Part shown: positions 939 through 10,036 of the stretch, one piece after another
How positions within the stretch are numbered: position 1 is the first letter of the stretch
How the letters are laid out: the number at the start of each line of letters is the position of its first letter
NCBI GenBank assembly: GCA_021802595.1
Contig: JAJZRT010000086.1
Span: forward strand, 1 to 10,036
DNA from: Pseudomonadota bacterium
Lineage (GTDB): Bacteria; Pseudomonadota; Gammaproteobacteria; Burkholderiales; Thiobacillaceae
Length of the DNA stretch: 10,036 nucleotides
Direction of reading: 5' to 3'
Position numbers and translations under genes: made by a program
The notes under the pieces: generated by a model
Database searches by the model: none
Told to the model about the DNA's origin: nothing
What the model saw: the letters and a program-made list of their open reading frames with translations, nothing else

Positions 939-979
939 CGGCGGCTGCGATCCCGCCGCCCGGCAGGCGAGCCCCCTAG

Positions 980-1089
980 GGAAGCGCTGAACAAGTCCTT
1001 CGACAAGCTCAGGACGAACGGCAACTTGTTGATTCCGTTCGTGGTGAGCCTGTCGAACCATGAGCGGAATCAACTTGTTCAGCGCTTCC
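980..1089 (+). mobile_element. MITE-like element, copy 1 (IS5-type ends)
   Basis: This is a 110-bp element with perfect 17-bp terminal inverted repeats (GGAAGCGCTGAACAAGT at the left, its complement at the right). It is flanked by CTAG at 976-979 and 1090-1093, a 4-bp target duplication of the YTAR type. Inside are two REP-like motifs (CTTCGACAAGCTCAGGACGA, and GTTCG...CGAAC with a 15-base loop) and an inner inverted repeat TTGATTCCG/CGGAATCAA, so the transcript can fold into a long branched hairpin. It encodes no transposase. It separates the convergent left operon and PLD gene, and the right CTAG contains the PLD stop codon. It is identical to copies 3 and 4. Confidence 0.85.
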
Positions 1090-2811
1090 CTAGGCGAACA
1101 GCTCACGATCCCGAATCTTCCGGGCATCCGTGTAGTCCTCTTCCCACCAGGGCGTGTCGCCAGGGCTGCGCGGCGGCCTGGACAGCTGCAGCTTCCGCCT
1201 GGCCTTTCTTGCCGACTGCTGGGCCACCCGGAAATGGTAATGGTCGAAGATGCGCAGCGCCTCGATCATGTACGAGGTGGCGATGCGGCGGTCGCGGATC
1301 AGGAGCAGGTTTTCCCCGTTCCTGATGTCCGCCGGCGAGGAGAAGTTGTAAGAGCCGAAATAGACCCGTGCGGTTGGCTTGTCGAAGTCGATGACGACGA
1401 ATTTGTGGTGCATGCGTGTGCCCGTGCCGCCCGTGGGTTCGCGCTTGAACGGCTCCGGCAGGTTCTTCGCGAGGGCCGAGGCAAAGACTGGCGGGATATT
1501 GCCGTCCGGCGTCTGGAGGTCGAGCCCGCCGCCGGCCTTCCGGTCGGAAATGCCGTAGACGAAAACCCTGCCGTCCCTGGAGACCTTTTCGATCGCGTCG
1601 CGGATGGGCCCCTGCGTTTGGTAAAGGAAGGCCAGCGAATAGAAGAGCGACGATTTGGTCCGTCCGCCGATGTCGTCCGCGATGGACTGCAGCAGGGCGT
1701 TCGATTTCGCGTGCGGCGAGAAGCTCACCTTGGCGTTGATTCCATCGAGGCCCAGCGTGCGCCATTTCGCGGCGTCCGTCGTGCCGAAGCCGGCGGCGCC
1801 GTCATTCTGCCAGTAGTCATCGAAGGCTTCGCGGAAGGGGGCGACCGCTGTCCTGCCCTCCAGGATCACGGCATTGTTCGCCTGGACGAAGAATCCCCGC
1901 CAGCTGAAATTGGTCGAACCGCACACGACCCGCCGGCATTGGGGGCCATCGACCACGATGGTCTTGTTGTGCTGCAGGCTGCCCATGTGTTGCCGCTTGA
2001 CGTTGTCCGCCCCGGCCGTGGCTTTCAGACGTGCTGCCGCCACCGACTCGGCGGAGTCCGGCTGGCCGTGGGTACCGCTGTCATCGATGATGATCTGCAG
2101 CCGTTTTCCGAGCGCCTGGAGACGCAGGACGACTTCCCGCTCGTTCAGGTCATACGCCACCACGCGGACCCGGGCCTTCTTGTCACGGATCGCCGCGTCG
2201 AGCACCTCGAGAATGGCATCGCGTGCCTCAAAGCCCATCCATTCCAGGGCTTCGACGGCCTTGGGGTGGGTGGGAATGAAATCCAGGCCGTCATCGGCGT
2301 TGGCCGGCAGCAGGGTGGCGATCCCGTCGTGCGCGGTGACGTACCGGTCCACGAAGGCCTGTGACGACACGAAGCCGCGCGTGAAGGTGACATTGAGTTG
2401 CCCGGGGCAGGTTTCGCGCCGAAGCTCGATGGCGGCGTCCTGCGCCTCTCCATAGCTCAATACGTCGTCCGCATCCATGAAGACCGGCGTGACCCGGTAA
2501 ACGAACTGGCCGGCGAGTCCGGCATTGCGCGGGAAATGCACCCAGCGGAATTTCTGGATCGGCGACAGCCGGGTGGACAGCTGGTTCGGGTTGACCGCGC
2601 CGGCCGCGCCGGGAAACGCAAGACGGTTCTTCAGGGCGAAGAATTTCTGGCCGCCCGGCTCCTTGTACTCGATTGCGAAGCCGACGAAATCCTCCGGAGG
2701 CCTCCCTTTCTTCCAGTTCATCGCGACCAGCGTCATGCCGTCGCCGCGATGCAGCTTGAGCGTGAAAAGCGCCGCCGGATTCTGGCCGCCGACCTGAAAT
2801 GCACTGTTCAT
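1090..2811 (-). CDS. Phospholipase D-like phosphodiesterase with two HKD motifs
   Basis: This 573-residue protein belongs to the PLD superfamily, whose members cleave or transfer phosphodiester bonds in phospholipids or nucleic acids through a phosphohistidine intermediate. Both catalytic motifs are intact: H281-x-K283-x4-D288 followed by GSTNF (298-302), and H468-x-K470-x4-D475 followed by GSYNF (486-490). A single chain can therefore build the whole active site. Residues 1 to about 160 form a separate, unrecognised N-terminal domain of beta-like character. The C-terminal tail (from about 530) is basic. No signal peptide or membrane segment is visible, so a cytoplasmic location is inferred. 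ATG 2811 has GGAGG at 2819-2823. The stop codon lies at the edge of mobile element copy 1. The substrate cannot be read from the sequence; a nuclease, a lipase and a defence or toxin role all remain possible. Confidence 0.9.
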   Translation of the reverse strand: MNSAFQVGGQNPAALFTLKLHRGDGMTLVAMNWKKGRPPEDFVGFAIEYKEPGGQKFFALKNRLAFPGAAGAVNPNQLSTRLSPIQKFRWVHFPRNAGLAGQFVYRVTPVFMDADDVLSYGEAQDAAIELRRETCPGQLNVTFTRGFVSSQAFVDRYVTAHDGIATLLPANADDGLDFIPTHPKAVEALEWMGFEARDAILEVLDAAIRDKKARVRVVAYDLNEREVVLRLQALGKRLQIIIDDSGTHGQPDSAESVAAARLKATAGADNVKRQHMGSLQHNKTIVVDGPQCRRVVCGSTNFSWRGFFVQANNAVILEGRTAVAPFREAFDDYWQNDGAAGFGTTDAAKWRTLGLDGINAKVSFSPHAKSNALLQSIADDIGGRTKSSLFYSLAFLYQTQGPIRDAIEKVSRDGRVFVYGISDRKAGGGLDLQTPDGNIPPVFASALAKNLPEPFKREPTGGTGTRMHHKFVVIDFDKPTARVYFGSYNFSSPADIRNGENLLLIRDRRIATSYMIEALRIFDHYHFRVAQQSARKARRKLQLSRPPRSPGDTPWWEEDYTDARKIRDRELFA

Positions 2812-2818
2812 TGCACGT

Positions 2819-2823
2819 CCTCC
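2819..2823 (-). promoter_or_regulatory. Strong Shine-Dalgarno of the PLD gene
   Basis: GGAGG on the minus strand lies 7 bases before ATG 2811 and fixes this start. Confidence 0.7.
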
Positions 2824-2852
2824 AAGGTGGAAGAAAGGGGCGGCTCCCGCGG

Positions 2853-2870
2853 GGCATCCAGAAGGATGCC
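2853..2870. other. Short perfect hairpin in the leader of the PLD gene
   Basis: GGCATCC (2853-2859) and GGATGCC (2864-2870) pair over a 4-base loop. It sits about 40 bases upstream of the PLD start, so it may lie in the 5' leader. There is no T run on either strand, so it does not look like an intrinsic terminator. The rest of 2824-3046 shows no gene and no promoter I would defend. Confidence 0.4.
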
Positions 2871-3050
2871 GGGGCCGGCGCCATCCAGCGCCTGAGCCGC
2901 AGAAGTCAGCTTAGGCCAACTATCTCAAAGATTGATGCATGGCAGGCATGGAGAATGTGTTCGCGGCAGCCCTCCTGGCCCGATTGACCGCCGGGCGGAT
3001 GGGCCTGAATGCGCCGCCATCCTGGTTGGCACGCCGGACTGTTCGCTTAG

Positions 3051-3160
3051 GGAAGCGCTGAACAAGTTGATTCCGCTCATGGTTCGACAGACTCGCCACG
3101 AACGGAATCAACAAGTTGCCGTTCGTCCTGAGCTTGTCGAAGGACTTGTTCAGCGCTTCC
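3051..3160 (-). mobile_element. MITE-like element, copy 2 (inverted, two substitutions)
   Basis: Same 110-bp element as copy 1 but in the opposite orientation, differing at two positions in one REP-like arm (ACAGACTCGCC where the others read ACAGGCTCACC). It is flanked by TTAG at 3047-3050 and 3161-3164. It lies in the spacer between the divergent PLD and zinc-sensor genes and ends about 60 bases before the operator-like palindrome, so it may affect the upstream part of the zinc operon promoter. It is the only copy not placed on a stop codon and the only diverged one, which suggests an older insertion. Confidence 0.85.
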
Positions 3161-3219
3161 TTAGGCATCGCCTGCGGGGATACGCGTTGGCCTTGCGGGG
3201 TCCGGCCCGGATAGATAAC

Positions 3220-3239
3220 ATGTAAACATCTGTTTATAT
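3220..3239. promoter_or_regulatory. Operator-like palindrome and AT-rich promoter of the zinc operon
   Basis: A perfect inverted repeat TAAACA-TC-TGTTTA (3223-3236) sits in an AT-rich island (3211-3244) that stands out from the GC-rich surroundings. Its layout resembles the short-spaced palindromes bound by SmtB/CzrA-type ArsR repressors. TTGCGG (3193-3198) and TAACAT (3216-3221), 17 bases apart, are a possible -35/-10 pair; TATATA (3235-3240) is an alternative -10. Either way the palindrome overlaps the promoter, as expected for repression by metal-free ArsR and release by metal. The exact transcription start is inference. Confidence 0.6.
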
Positions 3240-3252
3240 ATATTCGCGATAC

Positions 3253-3561
3253 ATGCATGATCCTGACGCCCCCGTCGCCGACCTCGCCGACCTCTTCCGT
3301 CTGCTGGGCGATCCGACCCGCCTGCGCATTGTGCTGGCCTGTCTTGAATCCCCCGTCTCGGTCGGCGATATCGCCGGCAAACTCGCGTTGAGCGGGCCGC
3401 TGGTCAGCCATCACCTGCGGCTCCTTCGGGCGGCGCGCATCCTCAAGGCCGATCGGCAAGGCAAGCAGGTGTTCTATGCGGCCGCCGACCGGCACGTTTC
3501 GGAAATGCTGGCCGACATGCTGGAGCATGTCGCAGAACCCCATCAGGAAACCGACGCATGA
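3253..3561 (+). CDS. ArsR/SmtB-family zinc-type metal-sensing repressor
   Basis: This 102-residue winged-helix protein matches the usual ArsR/SmtB length. The helix-turn-helix spans about residues 36-64 (DIAGKLALSGPLVSHHLRLL). The C-terminal helix carries D79-x-H81-x10-H92-x2-E95, the same spacing and residue types as the alpha-5 zinc site of SmtB and CzrA. The alpha-3 cysteine motif of arsenic and cadmium/lead sensors is absent. I infer a homodimer that represses its own operon until zinc (perhaps cobalt) binds. Its stop overlaps the start of the exporter gene (ATGA), so the two are translationally coupled. ATG 3253 has no visible Shine-Dalgarno, only AT-rich promoter sequence, so the message may have a very short leader or none. 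Confidence 0.92.
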   Translation: MHDPDAPVADLADLFRLLGDPTRLRIVLACLESPVSVGDIAGKLALSGPLVSHHLRLLRAARILKADRQGKQVFYAAADRHVSEMLADMLEHVAEPHQETDA

Positions 3562-4493
3562 CAGCCCACGCCCACCACTCCGCCCATGGCCATGATCATG
3601 CAGGCCATCACCATCATGGCGACCCCGACAGCCATGGCCGCGCGTTCTTCGTCGCCGTCGTTCTCAACAGTCTGTTCGTCGTGGTCGAGTTTTCCTATGG
3701 CGTGGTCGCCAACTCGACGGCGCTGATGGCGGATGCCGGACACAACCTGTCCGACGTGCTGGGGCTGCTGCTCGCCTGGGGGGCGGCCATGCTTGCCCGC
3801 CGCGCGCCGAGTGGCCGCTTCACCTATGGCTTGCGCAGCACCTCCATCATGGCGGCCGTGGCCAATGCGATGCTGTTGCTGGCCGCGTGCGGCGCCATCA
3901 CCTGGGAGGCCGTCCAGCGCTTCCATCAACCCCCTGCGGTGGCGGGAATGACCGTGACCCTGGTCGCCGGGGCCGGCATCGTCGTCAACAGCCTGTCGGC
4001 GTGGCTGTTCATGAAGGGCAGCAAGGGCGATCTGAACATCCGGGGCGCCTATCTGCATATGGCCGCCGACGCTGCCGTGTCGCTGGGCGTGGTGGTCGCC
4101 GGCGTGGCGATGATGGTCACGGGCGGGTTCTGGCTGGACCCGGCGATCAGTCTTGCGATCGTGGGGGTGATTGTCTACAGCACCTGGGGCCTGCTGCGGG
4201 AGTCGATGCAACTGCTGCTCAATGCCGTTCCCGCGCATATCGACCTAGAGAAGGTGGAGGCCTATCTGCACGCCCTTCCTGGCGTTGCGGACATCCACGA
4301 CCTGCATGTCTGGGGGATGAGCACCACCGAGGCCGCGCTGACCGTCCATCTGGTCACCCCCGGCGGGTATCCCGGCGACGCCTTCATGGATGCGGTGACG
4401 CATGAGCTGGAGGCGCGTTTCGGGATCCATCACAGCACCCTCCAGGTCGAGCAGGGCACGACCCCTCACGCCTGTCGACTGCATTCGCAGTAG
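3558..4493 (+). CDS. Cation diffusion facilitator zinc exporter (ZitB/CzcD type)
   Basis: This 311-residue CDF protein should export Zn2+ from the cytoplasm in exchange for protons. It has six membrane segments between about residues 28 and 210. The transport-site residues are H62-x3-D66 in the second segment (GHNLSD) and H167-x3-D171 in the fifth (HMAAD), the His-Asp/His-Asp set associated with zinc preference in this family. A C-terminal cytoplasmic domain follows (about 225-300, with HDLHVWGMSTTE). The first 26 residues are very histidine-rich (HAHHSAHGHDHAGHHHHGD) and probably bind metal. ATG 3558 overlaps the regulator's stop and has AGGA 9 bases upstream. Control by the preceding ArsR protein is inferred. 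Cobalt, cadmium or nickel may be secondary substrates. Confidence 0.93.
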   Translation: MTAHAHHSAHGHDHAGHHHHGDPDSHGRAFFVAVVLNSLFVVVEFSYGVVANSTALMADAGHNLSDVLGLLLAWGAAMLARRAPSGRFTYGLRSTSIMAAVANAMLLLAACGAITWEAVQRFHQPPAVAGMTVTLVAGAGIVVNSLSAWLFMKGSKGDLNIRGAYLHMAADAAVSLGVVVAGVAMMVTGGFWLDPAISLAIVGVIVYSTWGLLRESMQLLLNAVPAHIDLEKVEAYLHALPGVADIHDLHVWGMSTTEAALTVHLVTPGGYPGDAFMDAVTHELEARFGIHHSTLQVEQGTTPHACRLHSQ

Positions 4494-4516
4494 CATCCCC
4501 GGGGCCGCCCGCCTAA

Positions 4517-4626
4517 GGAAGCGCTGAACAAGTCCTTCGACAAGCTCAGGACGAACGGCAACTTGTTGATTCCGTTCGTGGTGAGCCTGTCGAACCATGA
4601 GCGGAATCAACTTGTTCAGCGCTTCC
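4517..4626 (+). mobile_element. MITE-like element, copy 3
   Basis: A 110-bp element identical to copy 1 and in the same orientation, flanked by CTAA at 4513-4516 and 4627-4630. It lies between the convergent zinc exporter and EamA transporter genes. The right-hand duplication contains the EamA stop codon (TTAG on the minus strand, T from the last His codon plus TAG). As the only sequence between the two gene ends besides 19 bases, its hairpin may shape the 3' ends of both messages, although no T run follows it. Confidence 0.85.
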
Positions 4627-5688
4627 CTAATGGCCGTGCCGGTGATGCAGATCGGGCAAATGGGGGTGGTCGTGCAGCAGGGCCTCGTGACGGTGGGGGT
4701 GGGAATGGGGTTCCGGACCTTCGCTGCCGTCGTGGGGGTGCTGGTGGTGCGCATCATGGACGTGGCGATGGGCATGCTCCAGCGGCTCATGAAGGTGTTC
4801 ATGCGCGTGGCGCTCGGTCAGCACCAGCCATGTCGCGACCAGCATGAGACCGAAGGCCGACAGCAGGGGGACGGTCAGCGGTTCGCCGAGGAGAAGCACG
4901 GACAGGATGGCGCCGATGAACGGGGCCGTCGCGAAGTGGGCCGCGGTCCGGGCGCTGCCGAGGTGACGCAGGGCCAGGATGTAGAACAGGAGGCTGGCGC
5001 CGTAGGCGAGGCTGCCCAGGATCAGCGCTGCCACGGCATAGGCGGGCGACGGCCCCGCTTCGCCGGCCAGATGGGCCAGGACGAGATTCACGCTGCCCGC
5101 GACCATGCCCTTGACCATCGCGATGACCACCGGGTCGCCGCCGGAAATCGGGCGGGTCAGGTTGTTGTCCAGTCCCCAGAGCCCGCAGGCGCCCACCACT
5201 GCCAGCGCGTGAACCGACAGGCCCACGCCTGCGCCGGGCGAATAAGCCAGCAGGCCGCCGGCGAACAGCATCAGAACGGCACCCGCCCAGACGCGGCCGT
5301 CGACCGCTTCCCTGAACGCCAGGGCGGATATCAGGGTGGTCAGGACCCCTTCGGTGGACAGGAGCAGCGACGCCCCCGAAGCGGGTATGCCCGCCAATCC
5401 CCAGAGCAGGAGCACGGGTGCCGCGATGCCGCCGCAGGCCACGGAGCCGGCCAGCCACATGAAGTCCCTGCCGGCCAGAGGCGCTTCCTTCGCGACGCCC
5501 CGTGAACGGTGCCGGCGCAGCAGCCAGACCGCGAGCAGGCCCAGCCCGCTGCCGAGATAGAGGAACGCAGCCAGGGAGAGCGGGCCGAAACCGGCAAGGA
5601 GCCGCTTCGAGAGCGGCGCGCTTGCGCCGAACAGCGCGGCGGCGAGCAGGGCGAGCAGGGCGAAGCGCTGGATTTCCCGGTTGATCAT
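4627..5688 (-). CDS. EamA/DMT-family transporter with histidine-rich C-terminal tail
   Basis: From ATG 5688 this gives 353 residues with about ten membrane segments in two EamA repeats (first repeat about residues 8-150, second about 160-292; motifs LFGASAPLSKRLL, LLSTEGVLTTLISALAF, FATAPFIGAILSVLLLGEPL). DMT permeases move metabolites across the inner membrane. Residues 294-353 hold 23 histidines in 60 positions and end HHRHGH, a soluble tail suited to metal binding. I recall similar tails in other EamA proteins, so this looks like a subfamily trait. A metal-related role is inference, helped by the zinc exporter next door. An in-frame ATG ATG at 5719-5724 would add 12 residues; neither start has a clear Shine-Dalgarno. 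I chose 5688 because it begins just before the first membrane helix. The stop lies in the target duplication of element copy 3. Confidence 0.88.
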   Translation of the reverse strand: MINREIQRFALLALLAAALFGASAPLSKRLLAGFGPLSLAAFLYLGSGLGLLAVWLLRRHRSRGVAKEAPLAGRDFMWLAGSVACGGIAAPVLLLWGLAGIPASGASLLLSTEGVLTTLISALAFREAVDGRVWAGAVLMLFAGGLLAYSPGAGVGLSVHALAVVGACGLWGLDNNLTRPISGGDPVVIAMVKGMVAGSVNLVLAHLAGEAGPSPAYAVAALILGSLAYGASLLFYILALRHLGSARTAAHFATAPFIGAILSVLLLGEPLTVPLLSAFGLMLVATWLVLTERHAHEHLHEPLEHAHRHVHDAHHQHPHDGSEGPEPHSHPHRHEALLHDHPHLPDLHHRHGH

Positions 5689-5782
5689 GGGGGAGAACAC
5701 AGTCCGGACAAGGCCAGACATCATAGTCGCATTGCGCTGCCAAGGGCGTGCGCGCCAAGGCCGGTCCTGCTTCGGGGCAGCC

Positions 5783-6214
5783 TCACCCCATGATCAGATT
5801 GAACACCTGGCGCATCAATTCCAGCTCGGTCACGGGCATCCCGCGCATCTGGCTGATGGGCCTGAACACGCCGCCGAGCGGTTCGATGGCCGCGTGCGGG
5901 GCGTCGAGTCCGGTGAAACGGGCCAGATGGATGCGGATGAGGCCGCTGGCGTCAGACCGCCAGGCCTGGAAGCCGTCATCCATCTTCAGCTGCGCGGCGT
6001 CGAGGCCGTATCTCGCCGCCAGCGCGTCGAGCACCGCGCCGGGACCGTGCTGCCCGTCGACGTCATCGGGGGCCGGCATGTCGCGCACCGCCTCCGGCAG
6101 GGGCGCGGGGGCCAGGACGCTATCGCCGTAGCGGGCGAACAGCAGCGCTGCGCTGTAGCTGTCGAAGTGGCACAGGATCACGCGGTTGCGCTGGAGGAGG
6201 TCGGACGTTTCCAT
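5783..6214 (-). CDS. Conserved-looking protein of unknown function (143 aa)
   Basis: ATG 6214 follows directly after an in-frame TAA, so it is the earliest possible start; no Shine-Dalgarno is visible. The protein is soluble. It opens with METSDLLQRNRVILCHFDSY, then an Ala/Pro-rich linker (about 36-50), a central region with GLDAAQLKMDDGFQAWRSD (about 69-87), and a hydrophobic C-terminal helix (ELELMRQVFNLIMG). No catalytic motif or membrane segment is evident and I recognise no family. It lies 47 bases after the FAH-family gene and 94 bases (58 with the longer start) before the EamA gene, all on the minus strand, so these three may be co-transcribed. Codon use matches the neighbours. Function unknown. 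Confidence 0.7.
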   Translation of the reverse strand: METSDLLQRNRVILCHFDSYSAALLFARYGDSVLAPAPLPEAVRDMPAPDDVDGQHGPGAVLDALAARYGLDAAQLKMDDGFQAWRSDASGLIRIHLARFTGLDAPHAAIEPLGGVFRPISQMRGMPVTELELMRQVFNLIMG

Positions 6215-6261
6215 TTAGGCATTCAGATAGGGTGAAAGGGAAGGAAAACCTTGCTGTGCCG

Positions 6262-6948
6262 CTAGCCGATGGCGACGGTGAGCGGTTCCAGCCCGGCGAC
6301 GCTGGCCTCGATGACGTCGCCCCGGACCACCGGCGCGACGCCGGCAGGGGTGCCGGTGAAGATGAGGTCGCCCGGAAACAGCTCGACCTGGTTCGACAGC
6401 AGGTGGACGATCTGCGGAATCTTCCAGAGCATGTCGCCGACGTCGGCGCTCTGGCGGAGATCGCCGTTGACCTTGAGTTCGATCCTGCCGCGGGCGATGG
6501 CGCCGGAATAGAACTCGGGCGTGATCGCGGTGCACGGCGCCGAGTGGTCGAATCCCTTGGCCATGTCCCAGGGGCGGCCCTTCTCGCGCGCGGCCCGCTG
6601 CAGGTCGCGCCGGGTCATGTCCAGCCCCACGGCGTAGCCGAAGACGTAGTCGTAATCGACCCGCTCGGCGGGGATGTTGCGGCCGCCCTTGTGCAGGGCC
6701 ACCACCAGTTCCACTTCGGGCTGCAGGTCGGCGGTGGCAGGCGGATAGGGCAGCACGGAGTTGTTCTGCAGGATGGCGCTCGCCGGCTTCATGAAAAAGA
6801 AGGGTTCGTCCGTGGCAGGGTCGGCGCCCATTTCGCGCGCATGGTCGGGATAGTTCTGCCCCACGCAGAAAATGCGGCGCACCGGAAACGGGTTGCTCGA
6901 CATGGCGTCCAGGGTGACGACAGGGGCGGGCGGGAAGGCGTAGTTCAT
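6262..6948 (-). CDS. Fumarylacetoacetate hydrolase family protein (fumarylpyruvate hydrolase-like)
   Basis: This 228-residue FAH-fold enzyme should hydrolyse C-C bonds in beta-diketo acids such as fumarylpyruvate or an acylpyruvate, or decarboxylate a keto acid. Family landmarks are IFCVGQNYPDHAREMG (26-41), FFMKPASA (51-58), the metal ligands E78, E80 and D110 (PEVELVV, GLDMTRRDLQ), K131 in DMAKGFDHSAPC, and LIFTGTPAGV (195-204). Length and motifs are closest to NagK-type fumarylpyruvate hydrolases of gentisate/salicylate breakdown, but no other gene of that pathway is here, so the substrate is uncertain. ATG 6948 gives the usual N-terminus; a GTG at 6978 would add 10 residues. A REP-like palindrome lies just upstream, so its link to the SelO operon is doubtful. 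Confidence 0.88.
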   Translation of the reverse strand: MNYAFPPAPVVTLDAMSSNPFPVRRIFCVGQNYPDHAREMGADPATDEPFFFMKPASAILQNNSVLPYPPATADLQPEVELVVALHKGGRNIPAERVDYDYVFGYAVGLDMTRRDLQRAAREKGRPWDMAKGFDHSAPCTAITPEFYSGAIARGRIELKVNGDLRQSADVGDMLWKIPQIVHLLSNQVELFPGDLIFTGTPAGVAPVVRGDVIEASVAGLEPLTVAIG

Positions 6949-6991
6949 GGGTCGGGTCTCGTGATGTAGGGGGGCCACAGGCTCTCAGTCA

Positions 6992-7092
6992 CCGTTCGGC
7001 TGAGCTTGTCGAAGCCTGCTTGCCGAAGTGGCCCTGTGCCCTCGCGGACATGCCTTTCGATCGTTCGACAGGCTCACGATCAGGGCGAACGG
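6992..7092. repeat. REP-like inverted repeat between the 91-aa gene and the FAH-family gene
   Basis: CCGTTCG (6992-6998) and CGAACGG (7086-7092) form the outer arms of a 101-bp palindromic unit. Within it are TGAGCTTGTCGAAG and GTTCGACAGGCTCA, the motifs found inside the 110-bp MITEs, and an inner hairpin GATCGT/ACGATC (7059-7064 with 7076-7081). It fills most of the 161-base gap and lacks the IS5-type ends. It may mark the 3' end of the GST-SelO-91-aa transcript; there is no T run for a classic terminator. Confidence 0.65.
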
Positions 7093-7109
7093 GAACGTTG
7101 CGAAGCCTT

Positions 7110-7385
7110 TCACGCCACGCGCTCGCCATCGCGGTAGCCGGCATCCGCTTCGAACTCCAGGTAATGCATCCTGAAGTGCGCTTCGATAGTGTCTTCGTCC
7201 GGAATGGAATCGGCCCGTTCCGGGTAGCGCGCCAGCAGATCGCTGCGATGCGTACGCCAGGCATTCAGCAGCGCGCGTCGGGCGGTGTCCCGGTCGCGGC
7301 CGGCGCCGCGGAACATGAAGTGGTGCGTGTTCATTTCCGCGACGACGAATTTTTCCGGGGCCGGGGTCTCCATGTCAACGCGCAT
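7110..7385 (-). CDS. Small protein of unknown function coupled to SelO (91 aa)
   Basis: ATG 7385-7383 overlaps the SelO stop by one base (TGATG), so translation should be coupled to SelO. A GTG one codon earlier is possible but less likely. The protein is acidic, soluble and probably mixed alpha/beta: MRVDMETPAPEKFVVAEMNT, then a basic helical stretch (TARRALLNAWRTHRSDLL, about 35-52) and HFRMHYLEFEAD near the end. It has no cysteines and no motif I recognise. The position suggests a partner or accessory of SelO, which is inference only. Confidence 0.72.
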   Translation of the reverse strand: MRVDMETPAPEKFVVAEMNTHHFMFRGAGRDRDTARRALLNAWRTHRSDLLARYPERADSIPDEDTIEAHFRMHYLEFEADAGYRDGERVA

Positions 7386-8878
7386 CACGACGAGCAGCCG
7401 ATTTCCAGATTGCGCAGTTCGGCGGGCGGCGCCGCCGCGTAGCGCTCCATCCCCGGCTGTTCGTCGTAGGGACGGGCGAGCAGCCGCATCAGGGTGGCGA
7501 CCTCGCTGTCGTCGCCGGCCACCGCGCGGTCGATGGCGGCCTGCGCGAGATGGTTGCGCAGCACGTAGTGCGGGTTGACCCGGTTCATGCGGGCGGCGCG
7601 TGCGGCGTCGTCGGTGTTCGACTCGGCGCGCAGCCGGGCGCGGTAGTCGGAGGCCCAGGCATCGAAGGCCTGGTGGTTGGCGATCTCGCTGCGCAGCGCG
7701 GTGTCAGGCGCATCGCTGCCGGTGGAGAGCCGCGCCAGCAGACGGAAGCTGCGGGTGAAGTCGCTGCGGCTGCGCTGCAGCAGGGTGAGCAGGCGGCTGA
7801 CCAGTTCGGCGTCGCCCGCGCGCACCTCCACGAGCCCCAGCTTGTCCACCCAGCGGCGCAGGGCGGCACGCGAATACGCGGGCGCGTAGCGTTCGTAGAT
7901 CGCGGTGACGATCCCGGCCGCCTCGTCCGGGTCGTCCGACAGCAGCGGCAGCGCCGCCTGCAGCAGACGCTCGCAGTTCCACTGGCCGATCAGCGGCTGG
8001 CTGTCGTAGCTGTAGCGGCCGTCGTAGTCGGAATGGTTGCAGACATGGTGCTGGCGGAAGGCGTCGAGGAAGCCGAAGGGGCCGTAATCCAGGGTGAGGC
8101 CGTGGATGGAGAAATTGTCGGTGTTCATCACGCCGTGGCAGAAGCCCACCGTCTGCCATTGCGCGATCAGCCGCGCGGTACGTTCGATTACTTCGGTCAG
8201 CCAAAGGGCGTAGCGGTCCGGCTCGCCCGCCAGGTGCGGGAAGCCTTCCGCGATCACGTGATCGGCCAGCGGGGCGAGCCGGTCGTGCTGGCCGCGCTGG
8301 CTGAAGTATTCGAACTGGCCGAAGCGGACGAAGCTGGGCGCGACACGACAGACGACCGCGGCGGTCTCCAGTGTCTCGCGCTGCACCGGCTCGGGCGAGG
8401 CCACCAGGCTGAGGCAGCGGACGCTGGGGATGCCGAGCGCGTGCATGGCTTCGGAACAGAGGTACTCGCGGATCGACGAGCGCAGCACGGCGCGGCCGTC
8501 GGCGCCGCGCGAGTAGGGGGTGGGCCCGGCGCCCTTGAGCTGCAGTTCCATGCGCTTGCCGCCGGGCGTGCGGATTTCCGCGATGGTCAGCGCGCGGCCG
8601 TCGCCCAGCTGTGGCACCCAGTTGCCGAACTGGTGGCCGGCATAGACCGAAGCCAGCGGCGCATACGCCGGCCACGGGCGGTTGCCGCTAAGGATGTCGA
8701 GCAGCTCCTGGTCGCCGCGGTCGAGGCCGAGTTCCACCGCCAGCCGGTCGTTGAAGTGGACCAGGCGTGGCTGCGGCAGCGGCGTCGGCGCGACCGGCGT
8801 GTGGTAGGGGTCGCCCAGGCGGGCGTAGCGCGGTTCGATCGGAATCTCCCGGTAGGGTTTCAATGGCTGCGGGTGCAT
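7385..8878 (-). CDS. selO: SelO/YdiU protein adenylyltransferase
   Basis: This 497-residue protein has the length and motifs of SelO (YdiU), a pseudokinase-fold enzyme that transfers AMP from ATP to Ser, Thr or Tyr residues of proteins, linked in bacteria to oxidative-stress response. Visible are SVYAGHQFGNWVPQLGDGRA (78-97), ELQLKGAGPTPYSRGADGRA with nucleotide-binding K115 (111-130), and the active-site region GFCHGVMNTDNFSIHG and LTLDYGPFGFLD with D254, N255 and D264. It ends EIGCSS, where C495 stands in the C-terminal redox motif in which animal SelO has selenocysteine. The family looks complete and active. The gene starts 4 bases after the GST stop and overlaps the 91-aa gene by one base, forming a compact redox-themed operon. 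Confidence 0.95.
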   Translation of the reverse strand: MHPQPLKPYREIPIEPRYARLGDPYHTPVAPTPLPQPRLVHFNDRLAVELGLDRGDQELLDILSGNRPWPAYAPLASVYAGHQFGNWVPQLGDGRALTIAEIRTPGGKRMELQLKGAGPTPYSRGADGRAVLRSSIREYLCSEAMHALGIPSVRCLSLVASPEPVQRETLETAAVVCRVAPSFVRFGQFEYFSQRGQHDRLAPLADHVIAEGFPHLAGEPDRYALWLTEVIERTARLIAQWQTVGFCHGVMNTDNFSIHGLTLDYGPFGFLDAFRQHHVCNHSDYDGRYSYDSQPLIGQWNCERLLQAALPLLSDDPDEAAGIVTAIYERYAPAYSRAALRRWVDKLGLVEVRAGDAELVSRLLTLLQRSRSDFTRSFRLLARLSTGSDAPDTALRSEIANHQAFDAWASDYRARLRAESNTDDAARAARMNRVNPHYVLRNHLAQAAIDRAVAGDDSEVATLMRLLARPYDEQPGMERYAAAPPAELRNLEIGCSS

Positions 8879-8882
8879 CGCT

Positions 8883-9497
8883 TCAGCGATAACCCTCCTC
8901 GCGCAGCACGCGCTGCACGACCGGGCGCGCCCGCATGCGCTGGTAGTGTGCGCGACAGTGTTCCGGCAGCGCGATGTCCAGCTTGTCGGCCCAGAATTCC
9001 ACGTAGAACAGCGCGGCGTCGGCGATGGAGAAGCGGCCTGCGATGTAGTCCTGGCCGGCGAGCGCTGCGTTCATGATCGCGAAGCCCTGCTCGACGATTT
9101 CGCGCCCGCGCACCTTCACCGCGTCGTGGTCGGCCGCGTTCGGCGTGAAGCTGTCGGTGGTGAAAATGCGCGCGAAGCCCTGGCCGTGCAGGGTGCCGAC
9201 GATGTAGTCCATCGTCTCGATCACGCGCGCCTCGCCGTCCGCATCGCCGGGCAGCAGCCCGGCTTTCGGGTGGCTGCGCGCCAGCCACCAGGCGATCGCC
9301 TGGAACTCGGTCAGCGCCGAGCCGTCGTCGCGCACCAGGGCGGGGATGGTGGCTTTCGGGTTGACCGCGAGGTAGGCCGGCTTGCGGTGGTCGCCCGCCG
9401 GCAGGTTGACGATATGGGCCTCGAACGGCAGGTCGAGTTCTTCCAGCAGGATGTGGATGCCGGTGGAGCAGGCGCCGGGCGTCATGTAGAACTTCAT
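8883..9497 (-). CDS. Glutathione S-transferase (beta-class-like)
   Basis: This 204-residue protein has the two-domain GST layout: a thioredoxin-like N-terminal domain (1 to about 78; MKFYMTPGACS with the beta-class Cys10, NPKATIPALV around the cis-proline, then the glutathione-contacting LTEFQAIAWWLA) and a helical C-terminal domain (about 88-204, with the capping motif GRFSIADAALFYVE). GSTs conjugate or reduce electrophiles and peroxides with glutathione in the cytoplasm. It is the first gene of the operon with SelO (gap 4 bases), which suggests a shared redox or detoxification role. ATG 9497 gives the standard family start; ATG 9503 two codons earlier is better spaced from GGAAA and may be used instead. 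The frame stays open upstream through repeats, but that part is not GST. Confidence 0.92.
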   Translation of the reverse strand: MKFYMTPGACSTGIHILLEELDLPFEAHIVNLPAGDHRKPAYLAVNPKATIPALVRDDGSALTEFQAIAWWLARSHPKAGLLPGDADGEARVIETMDYIVGTLHGQGFARIFTTDSFTPNAADHDAVKVRGREIVEQGFAIMNAALAGQDYIAGRFSIADAALFYVEFWADKLDIALPEHCRAHYQRMRARPVVQRVLREEGYR

Positions 9498-9531
9498 GGG
9501 CATTGTTGGATTTCCATTGCACATAACAAAG

Positions 9532-9575
9532 GCCCGTTCACTCTGAGCCCTTCGACAAGCCCAGGGCGAACGGGC
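9532..9575. repeat. REP-like palindrome upstream of the GST gene
   Basis: GCCCGTTC (9532-9539) and GAACGGGC (9568-9575) are perfect 8-base arms around CCTTCGACAAGCCCAGGG, a variant of the motif inside the 110-bp elements. It lies about 30 bases upstream of the GST start, so it may be in the 5' leader. Confidence 0.65.
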
Positions 9576-9634
9576 TGGGGGTGGATTGCTTGGGTGAGTT
9601 CGTCGGCACACATGGATTTGTCCACTGGCCGTTG

Positions 9635-9714
9635 CACCGTTCGTGGTGAGCTTGTCGAACCACAGCGTCTCAAAGCCTCTTGACCGAAACCATAGAATCT
9701 CAGGGCGAACGGTG
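9635..9714. repeat. REP-like inverted repeat, second unit upstream of the GST gene
   Basis: CACCGTTCG (9635-9643) and CGAACGGTG (9706-9714) are perfect 9-base arms. Inside, GTGGTGAGCTTGTCGAACCAC (9643-9663) forms its own 5-base hairpin and is nearly the right-hand motif of the MITEs. With the unit at 9532-9575 and element copy 4 it fills much of the 385-base spacer between the GST gene and the right-edge gene; no gene is visible there. Confidence 0.65.
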
Positions 9715-9772
9715 ATTGAGGCCGACTTTTTGCAGGCATGTCGTCCGAAATGATTTGGCGCATTTCCTTTAG

Positions 9773-9882
9773 GGAAGCGCTGAACAAGTCCTTCGACAAG
9801 CTCAGGACGAACGGCAACTTGTTGATTCCGTTCGTGGTGAGCCTGTCGAACCATGAGCGGAATCAACTTGTTCAGCGCTTCC
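9773..9882 (+). mobile_element. MITE-like element, copy 4
   Basis: A 110-bp element identical to copies 1 and 3 and in the same orientation, flanked by TTAG at 9769-9772 and 9883-9886. The right duplication holds the stop codon of the right-edge gene (CTAA on the minus strand: C from the last Asp codon plus TAA). Confidence 0.85.
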
Positions 9883-10036
9883 TTAGTCGTCTTCCATCGA
9901 CGGCAGCAGGATCACCTCGTCCGGCACGCCGTTGCCGTTTTCCTCGAAATCCAGGCCGCCGACGAGCGAGTAGCCGGCATCGCCCTCGATCAGCACCACG
10001 GCCTGCGCCGGCATCTGCCGCAGCGCGGCGATCAGC
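9883..10036 (-). CDS. C-terminal end of an unidentified protein, cut by the window edge
   Basis: The minus-strand frame is open from the window edge to TAA 9885-9883 and gives the last 50 residues. It reads LIAALRQMPAQAVVLIEGDA, then GYSLVGGLDFEENGNGVPDE and VILLPSMEDD. The strand-helix pattern and GC-rich third positions support coding. The DFEENGNGVPDE stretch is acidic and could be an exposed loop or a calcium-type loop, but I cannot assign a family. The stop codon lies in the target duplication of element copy 4. Confidence 0.6.
   Translation of the reverse strand, partial: LIAALRQMPAQAVVLIEGDAGYSLVGGLDFEENGNGVPDEVILLPSMEDD

Follow-up and report, generated by a model that had tools for sequence, protein, structure and literature searches.

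The 10,036-bp contig JAJZRT010000086.1 (GC 66%), hereafter the window, carries four repeats of 110 bp apiece, each lying between matching 4-bp duplications of the form YTAR (Y, C or T; R, A or G). The repeats are short, multi-copy, bounded by inverted ends (GGAAGCGCTGAACAAGT and its inverse) and flanked by a target duplication, as are bacterial miniature inverted-repeat transposable elements (MITEs), and judged from their sequence they look like MITEs of the IS5 type. In two sets of loci copies are in excess at stop codons, and stops contained in YTAR are occupied more often than any other class of site. Genes in the window and in all sets were called with our own hexamer-based scorer and not taken from curated annotation. 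The elements and their boundaries in the window are as follows.

976..979, left target duplication of copy 1 (CTAG)
980..1089, plus strand, MITE copy 1, 110 bp, with the ends given above
1090..1093, minus strand, right duplication of copy 1 (CTAG), including the TAG stop (1090-1092) of the PLD-domain gene (1090-2811)
3047..3050, left duplication of copy 2 (TTAG)
3051..3160, minus strand, MITE copy 2, reversed relative to copy 1, in a divergent intergenic region
3161..3164, right duplication of copy 2 (TTAG), with no stop overlapped
4513..4516, left duplication of copy 3 (CTAA)
4517..4626, plus strand, MITE copy 3
4627..4630, minus strand, right duplication of copy 3 (CTAA, TTAG on the minus strand), including the TAG stop (4627-4629) of the EamA gene
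9769..9772, left duplication of copy 4 (TTAG)
9773..9882, plus strand, MITE copy 4
9883..9886, minus strand, right duplication of copy 4 (TTAG, CTAA on the minus strand), including the TAA stop (9883-9885) of a gene cut by the right edge

Stop codons and protein ends in the window

The tetramer is identical on both sides of all four copies and varies from copy to copy, and the copies themselves are 97-98% alike over the long repeats. Since the duplications are alike within a copy and unlike between copies, these bases belong to the target and not to the element. The minus-strand PLD, EamA and right-edge genes end exactly where copy 1, copy 3 and copy 4, respectively, have their right-hand duplication, and the coordinates and frames given for them in a preliminary description of this DNA are correct. 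That description had proposed that insertion duplicates the whole stop, that the empty sites carried the same stops, and that the hairpin begins directly after an unchanged protein end. Duplication of the stop is borne out by the matching YTAR within each copy, three of which contain an in-frame stop, and because the duplicated bases are the target, the stop predates the insertion, which cannot truncate a gene at such a site. The hairpin does start right at the stop.

The protein ends were compared with those of homologues, the lists for the PLD and EamA proteins being the best 120. Among these, 117 of 119 PLD homologues match through to the final residue, with none running past the end of the query, and 119 of 120 EamA homologues reach the final residue of the query and exceed it by a median of 0 and a maximum of 7 residues. 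The right-edge gene has a match in 12 of the 38 genomes of the family of G639, the closest relative found (SelO 70% identical), and all eight relatives examined stop one residue earlier. Homologues end at the same point or within a few residues and do not run well past the stop, so the protein ends are unaltered, as had been claimed, and truncation of the host gene by the element is unsupported for all three genes.

The elements are only 110 bp long. A Pfam scan of nine proteins of the window revealed no transposase, and no Rfam family reached its gathering score in the window. Much of the element interior consists of TTCGACARGCTCAG...ACGAACGG-like units, which also occur outside the elements at window positions 7000-7090 and 9530-9715; the MITE seems to carry a repeat that occurs elsewhere between genes.

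Excess of copies at YTAR stop codons

A pattern scan located the element in Thiobacillus MAG_64 and in one other proteobacterial metagenome-assembled genome, with a matching element end in 7 of the 117 genomes of that family; the end was found in none of the 38 genomes of the family of G639. A stricter gapped pattern matched 2 of the 399 genomes of the order, plasmids gave partial matches in two records, and among viral contigs the 17-base end occurred in nine stretches, with the paired end in none of the DNA examined. Set 1 comprises the loci of five genomes, which are fragmented into many contigs, together with the window. Profile hits scoring 40 bits or more number 60, and the 27 with YTAR on both sides were retained; of the 33 omitted, nine by our reading also end a gene at gap 0, and one of these nine, L155, has the same flank as L123. 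The duplications are identical in 22 of the 27 copies, which were chosen for having YTAR on both sides. L157 and L067 have related ends and YTAR flanks with another interior (a TCATTCCGGCG / CCGGAATCCAG repeat).

The 27 copies of set 1 lie at stops in 14 cases, in intergenic DNA in 11 and in coding sequence (CDS) in two, compared with 44, 244 and 194 background YTAR sites in the same loci (L156-L159 being omitted from the background). The stop:intergenic counts, 14:11 versus 44:244, give an odds ratio (OR) of 7.1 (P 1.2e-5), and without the window they are 11:10 versus 42:242 (OR 6.3, P 1.5e-4).

The second set is independent of the first. A class-wide scan found a matching end in 20 of 369 genomes and led to G628, a contig of 3,246,214 bp for which 91 exact matches to a related MITE's end were listed. 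Set 2 consists of 77 copies, each no longer than 260 bp and bordered by YTAR on both sides, with one mismatch allowed in the element end; G716 and G595, where four loci were examined without a clean second end, were not used for counts. One locus of G628, L275 (3005-3314), holds a tandem pair of MITE copies with CTAG flanking both. Stops account for 32 of the 77 copies, intergenic DNA for 41 and CDS for four, over a background of 42, 220 and 119 sites. The ratio of 32:41 versus 42:220 gives an OR of 4.1 (P 1.5e-6), and an OR of 3.0 (P 1.7e-4) under a stricter background that excludes sites in regions holding a copy. Neither of the findings that would have told against the preliminary description, homologues running on well past the stop or the lack of an excess at stops, was obtained, the excess being present in both sets, and YTAR is scarce within genes as it had supposed: CDS makes up 435,036 of the 508,247 bp of the G628 loci, yet contains only 119 of 381 background sites.

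Expressed as occupancy, copies / (copies + background), the values for set 2 were 0.43 at stops, 0.27 at 1-100 nt on the 3′ side, 0.13 within 60 nt on the 5′ side, 0.10 at other sites and 0.03 in CDS; the corresponding values for set 1 were 0.24, 0.06, 0.07, 0.02 and 0.01. Occupancy in set 2 declines from stops through 3′ flanks and promoters to CDS; for set 1 the value of the 3′ flank does not exceed that of the promoter side. Much of the stop excess is avoidance of genes and promoters. The suggestion that stops are the main safe landing sites holds in so far as they are the most occupied class, but intergenic DNA receives 11 of the 27 copies of set 1 and 41 of the 77 of set 2.

Proposed selection after insertion and alternative explanations

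These distributions are probably the outcome of two steps, insertion at YTAR and then purifying selection among the insertions, those that overlap a stop being silent for the protein. An IS5 transposase, of which the window has none, would move the MITE in trans, and insertion at YTAR duplicates those four bases, as the matching duplications show. YTAR contains TAA or TAG on either strand, so that insertion at a gene ending in Y-TAR duplicates the stop in full and the protein is unaltered. Insertions within genes or near promoters would mostly be lost, as suggested by the low occupancy there. In the GC-rich genomes examined the surviving sites are concentrated at gene ends. Selection is also the most likely reason why stops exceed nearby 3′ sites, the protein being untouched and the stop keeping the site stably YTAR.

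The genes that end at element-overlapped stops look like ordinary genes: of 20 that were tested, 19 belong by their match (E≤0.001) to a Pfam family (including MarC, TilS, QueC and asparagine synthase), and the twentieth matched none. At L133 (G002) and L259 (G628) a single YTAR is common to two convergent genes, each of which has its own stop after the insertion; at L133 it is TTAG that serves both genes, and both stops are preserved.

Several results weigh against insertion followed by selection, and they are given here together with the alternatives on which they bear. It is possible, though less likely, that availability alone is responsible, a large part of the YTAR at which insertion is tolerated in GC-rich DNA being at stops, and insertions being tolerated at gene ends, such that stop overlap is a by-product of avoidance and the stop is not special. 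The window fits this explanation. It contains 14 YTAR, eight of them duplications, versus 29.3 expected from dinucleotide shuffles, and collapsing the duplications leaves ten pre-insertion sites.

At stops (five): 935, 1090, 4627, 6262 and 9883
Intergenic (three): 2911, 3047 and 6215
In CDS (two): 4245 and 8688

Stops thus represent five of the eight non-CDS sites, and at least three stops in four draws from these eight has a hypergeometric P of 35/70 = 0.5; the window alone is at chance, and no stop preference is visible there. For sets 1 and 2 chance was rejected as the cause, and for the window by itself it was not. When the intergenic region that received the copy is taken as given, 14 of 26 set 1 copies are at stops versus 12.4 expected (P 0.12), although the power of this test is low because most regions contain a single YTAR. 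The copy omitted from it, L108 (956-1065, G001), lies within one called open frame; as 110 + 4 bases equal 38 codons, insertion there would keep the frame. Between convergent genes the set 2 OR of 5.9 (P 7e-4) drops to 1.15 under the stricter background, which is not significant, and neither are the set 1 values of 2.0 (P 0.38) and 2.3 under the full and stricter backgrounds. Copies in CDS are also far below background, both in set 1 (2/27 versus 194/482 sites) and in set 2 (4/77 versus 119/381). Availability alone, however, does not account for the finding that stops exceed other YTAR lying at most 100 nt from the 3′ end of a gene in set 1 (OR 4.8, P 0.011), in set 2 (OR 2.1, P 0.028) and in the two pooled (OR 2.6, P 0.0016; all one-sided), nor for the excess between co-directional genes, which is seen in both sets with both backgrounds (set 1, OR 4.8, P 0.013 with the full and 4.5, P 0.016 with the stricter; set 2, OR 3.2, P 0.003 and 2.6, P 0.011).

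The excess in G628 also varies by target, which plain selection does not predict. With CTAA and TTAG pooled as one site read on opposite strands, the stop:intergenic counts are 14:4 versus a background of 12:47 for CTAG (OR 13.7), 14:20 versus 21:112 for CTAA/TTAG (OR 3.7) and 4:17 versus 9:61 for TTAA (OR 1.6, not significant). Tetramer preference as such was rejected as the cause, since the set 2 excess persists on stratification by tetramer (OR 4.3, P 4e-7). The CTAG counts would be in keeping with active targeting, in which the transpososome is drawn to certain features of gene ends (melting, structure or the state of transcription and translation) or to a motif wider than YTAR, as would the near-identical and hence young G628 copies, which already show the pattern, and the argument, made in the cited passages, that DNA structure matters for IS5 beyond the tetranucleotide (PMC5493358). 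Such targeting is nevertheless unlikely, given that flanking base composition, judged by eye, has no obvious wider motif and that the drop in set 2 occupancy away from gene ends is equally expected under selection. In the 153-bp class stops hold 8 of the 28 younger copies and 8 of the 16 older ones, and in the 205-bp class 10 of 19 younger and 4 of 10 older. Copies at stops and those in intergenic DNA are not significantly different in their divergence from the consensus (P 0.14 and 0.31). The broader proposition, that stops are an actively favored niche of YTAR transposition to which IS5-type elements are steered, with protein-silent stop duplication as a general route for hairpins into 3′ untranslated regions, is similarly improbable.

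A further proposal is that the elements are kept because they are beneficial, the hairpin at the stop ending or protecting transcripts. The predicted fold of copy 1 is very stable (−74.4 kcal/mol, z −9.2) and is located directly after the stop. In a simple scan, however, the five terminator-like sites of the window (6.0 expected in shuffles) were all outside the elements, which do not have the hairpin followed by a T run of an intrinsic terminator, and hence copy 1 is not a canonical one. Orientation relative to the stop gene is unbiased in G628 (13 versus 20, P 0.30) and many copies are situated elsewhere, which makes a benefit of this kind very unlikely.

With regard to mobilization, no insertion sequence (IS) with exactly the ends of the window element was found, and PF05598 was without a match in the five set 1 genomes, where other IS5 subgroups and models were not searched, so the IS5 link of the window element rests on its target, ends and size. 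Insertion followed by purifying selection would provide a quantitative survival rule for small mobile elements, whereby an element can land at a gene end without harm to the protein if its target contains a stop. The rule would extend to convergent genes that share the four bases, as at L133 and L259, and it predicts the sites of 3′ hairpin origin in GC-rich bacteria, which can be tested in any IS5-bearing genome.

Relation to IS5 and to other small elements

G628 contains an IS of 1,158 bp in five copies, all of them between two YTAR tetramers, which are identical in four copies and read TTAG/CTAG in the fifth. One of the five (L307) also adjoins the stop of a called gene. Its 318-residue transposase matches NF033581 (IS5 family) with 352.9 bits versus a cut-off of 140, and a similar IS with YTAR flanks is present in G595. 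The ends of the G628 IS, GGATGCTCTGAACAAG, are similar but not identical to GGAAGCGCTGAACAAG, and this IS is a possible partner type of the MITE.

YTAR is a known target of IS5, and YTAR MITEs are already known (PMC10359306, PMC5493358, PMC3189936, in the passages cited); the window and G628 copies both have this target, and CTAG is given for 15 of the 24 IS5 targets tabled in these sources (PMC10359306, PMC5493358). Landing of YTAR elements on stop codons is not described in the titles and abstract openings searched, a scope that leaves out most subscription journals and so is not proof that it is unpublished. The window elements share the YTAR duplication with IS5 (PMC10359306, PMC5493358) and, unlike IS5, are 110 bp long without a gene. 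MITEPsy1 of Pseudomonas syringae, for which an origin from ISPsy2 is suggested by its authors and which is tabled as 'IS5?', differs from them in interior and length; its six copies are placed in two loci, two intergenic sites and two other transposons, and gene stops are unmentioned in that part of the account (PMC3189936). RUP and other small bacterial MITEs, according to the cited part of the source, are non-autonomous with inverted ends and a target duplication, as are the window elements, whereas RUP is tied to IS630-Spn1 and has a TA target (PMC2229807). A TA target is too short to hold a stop codon.
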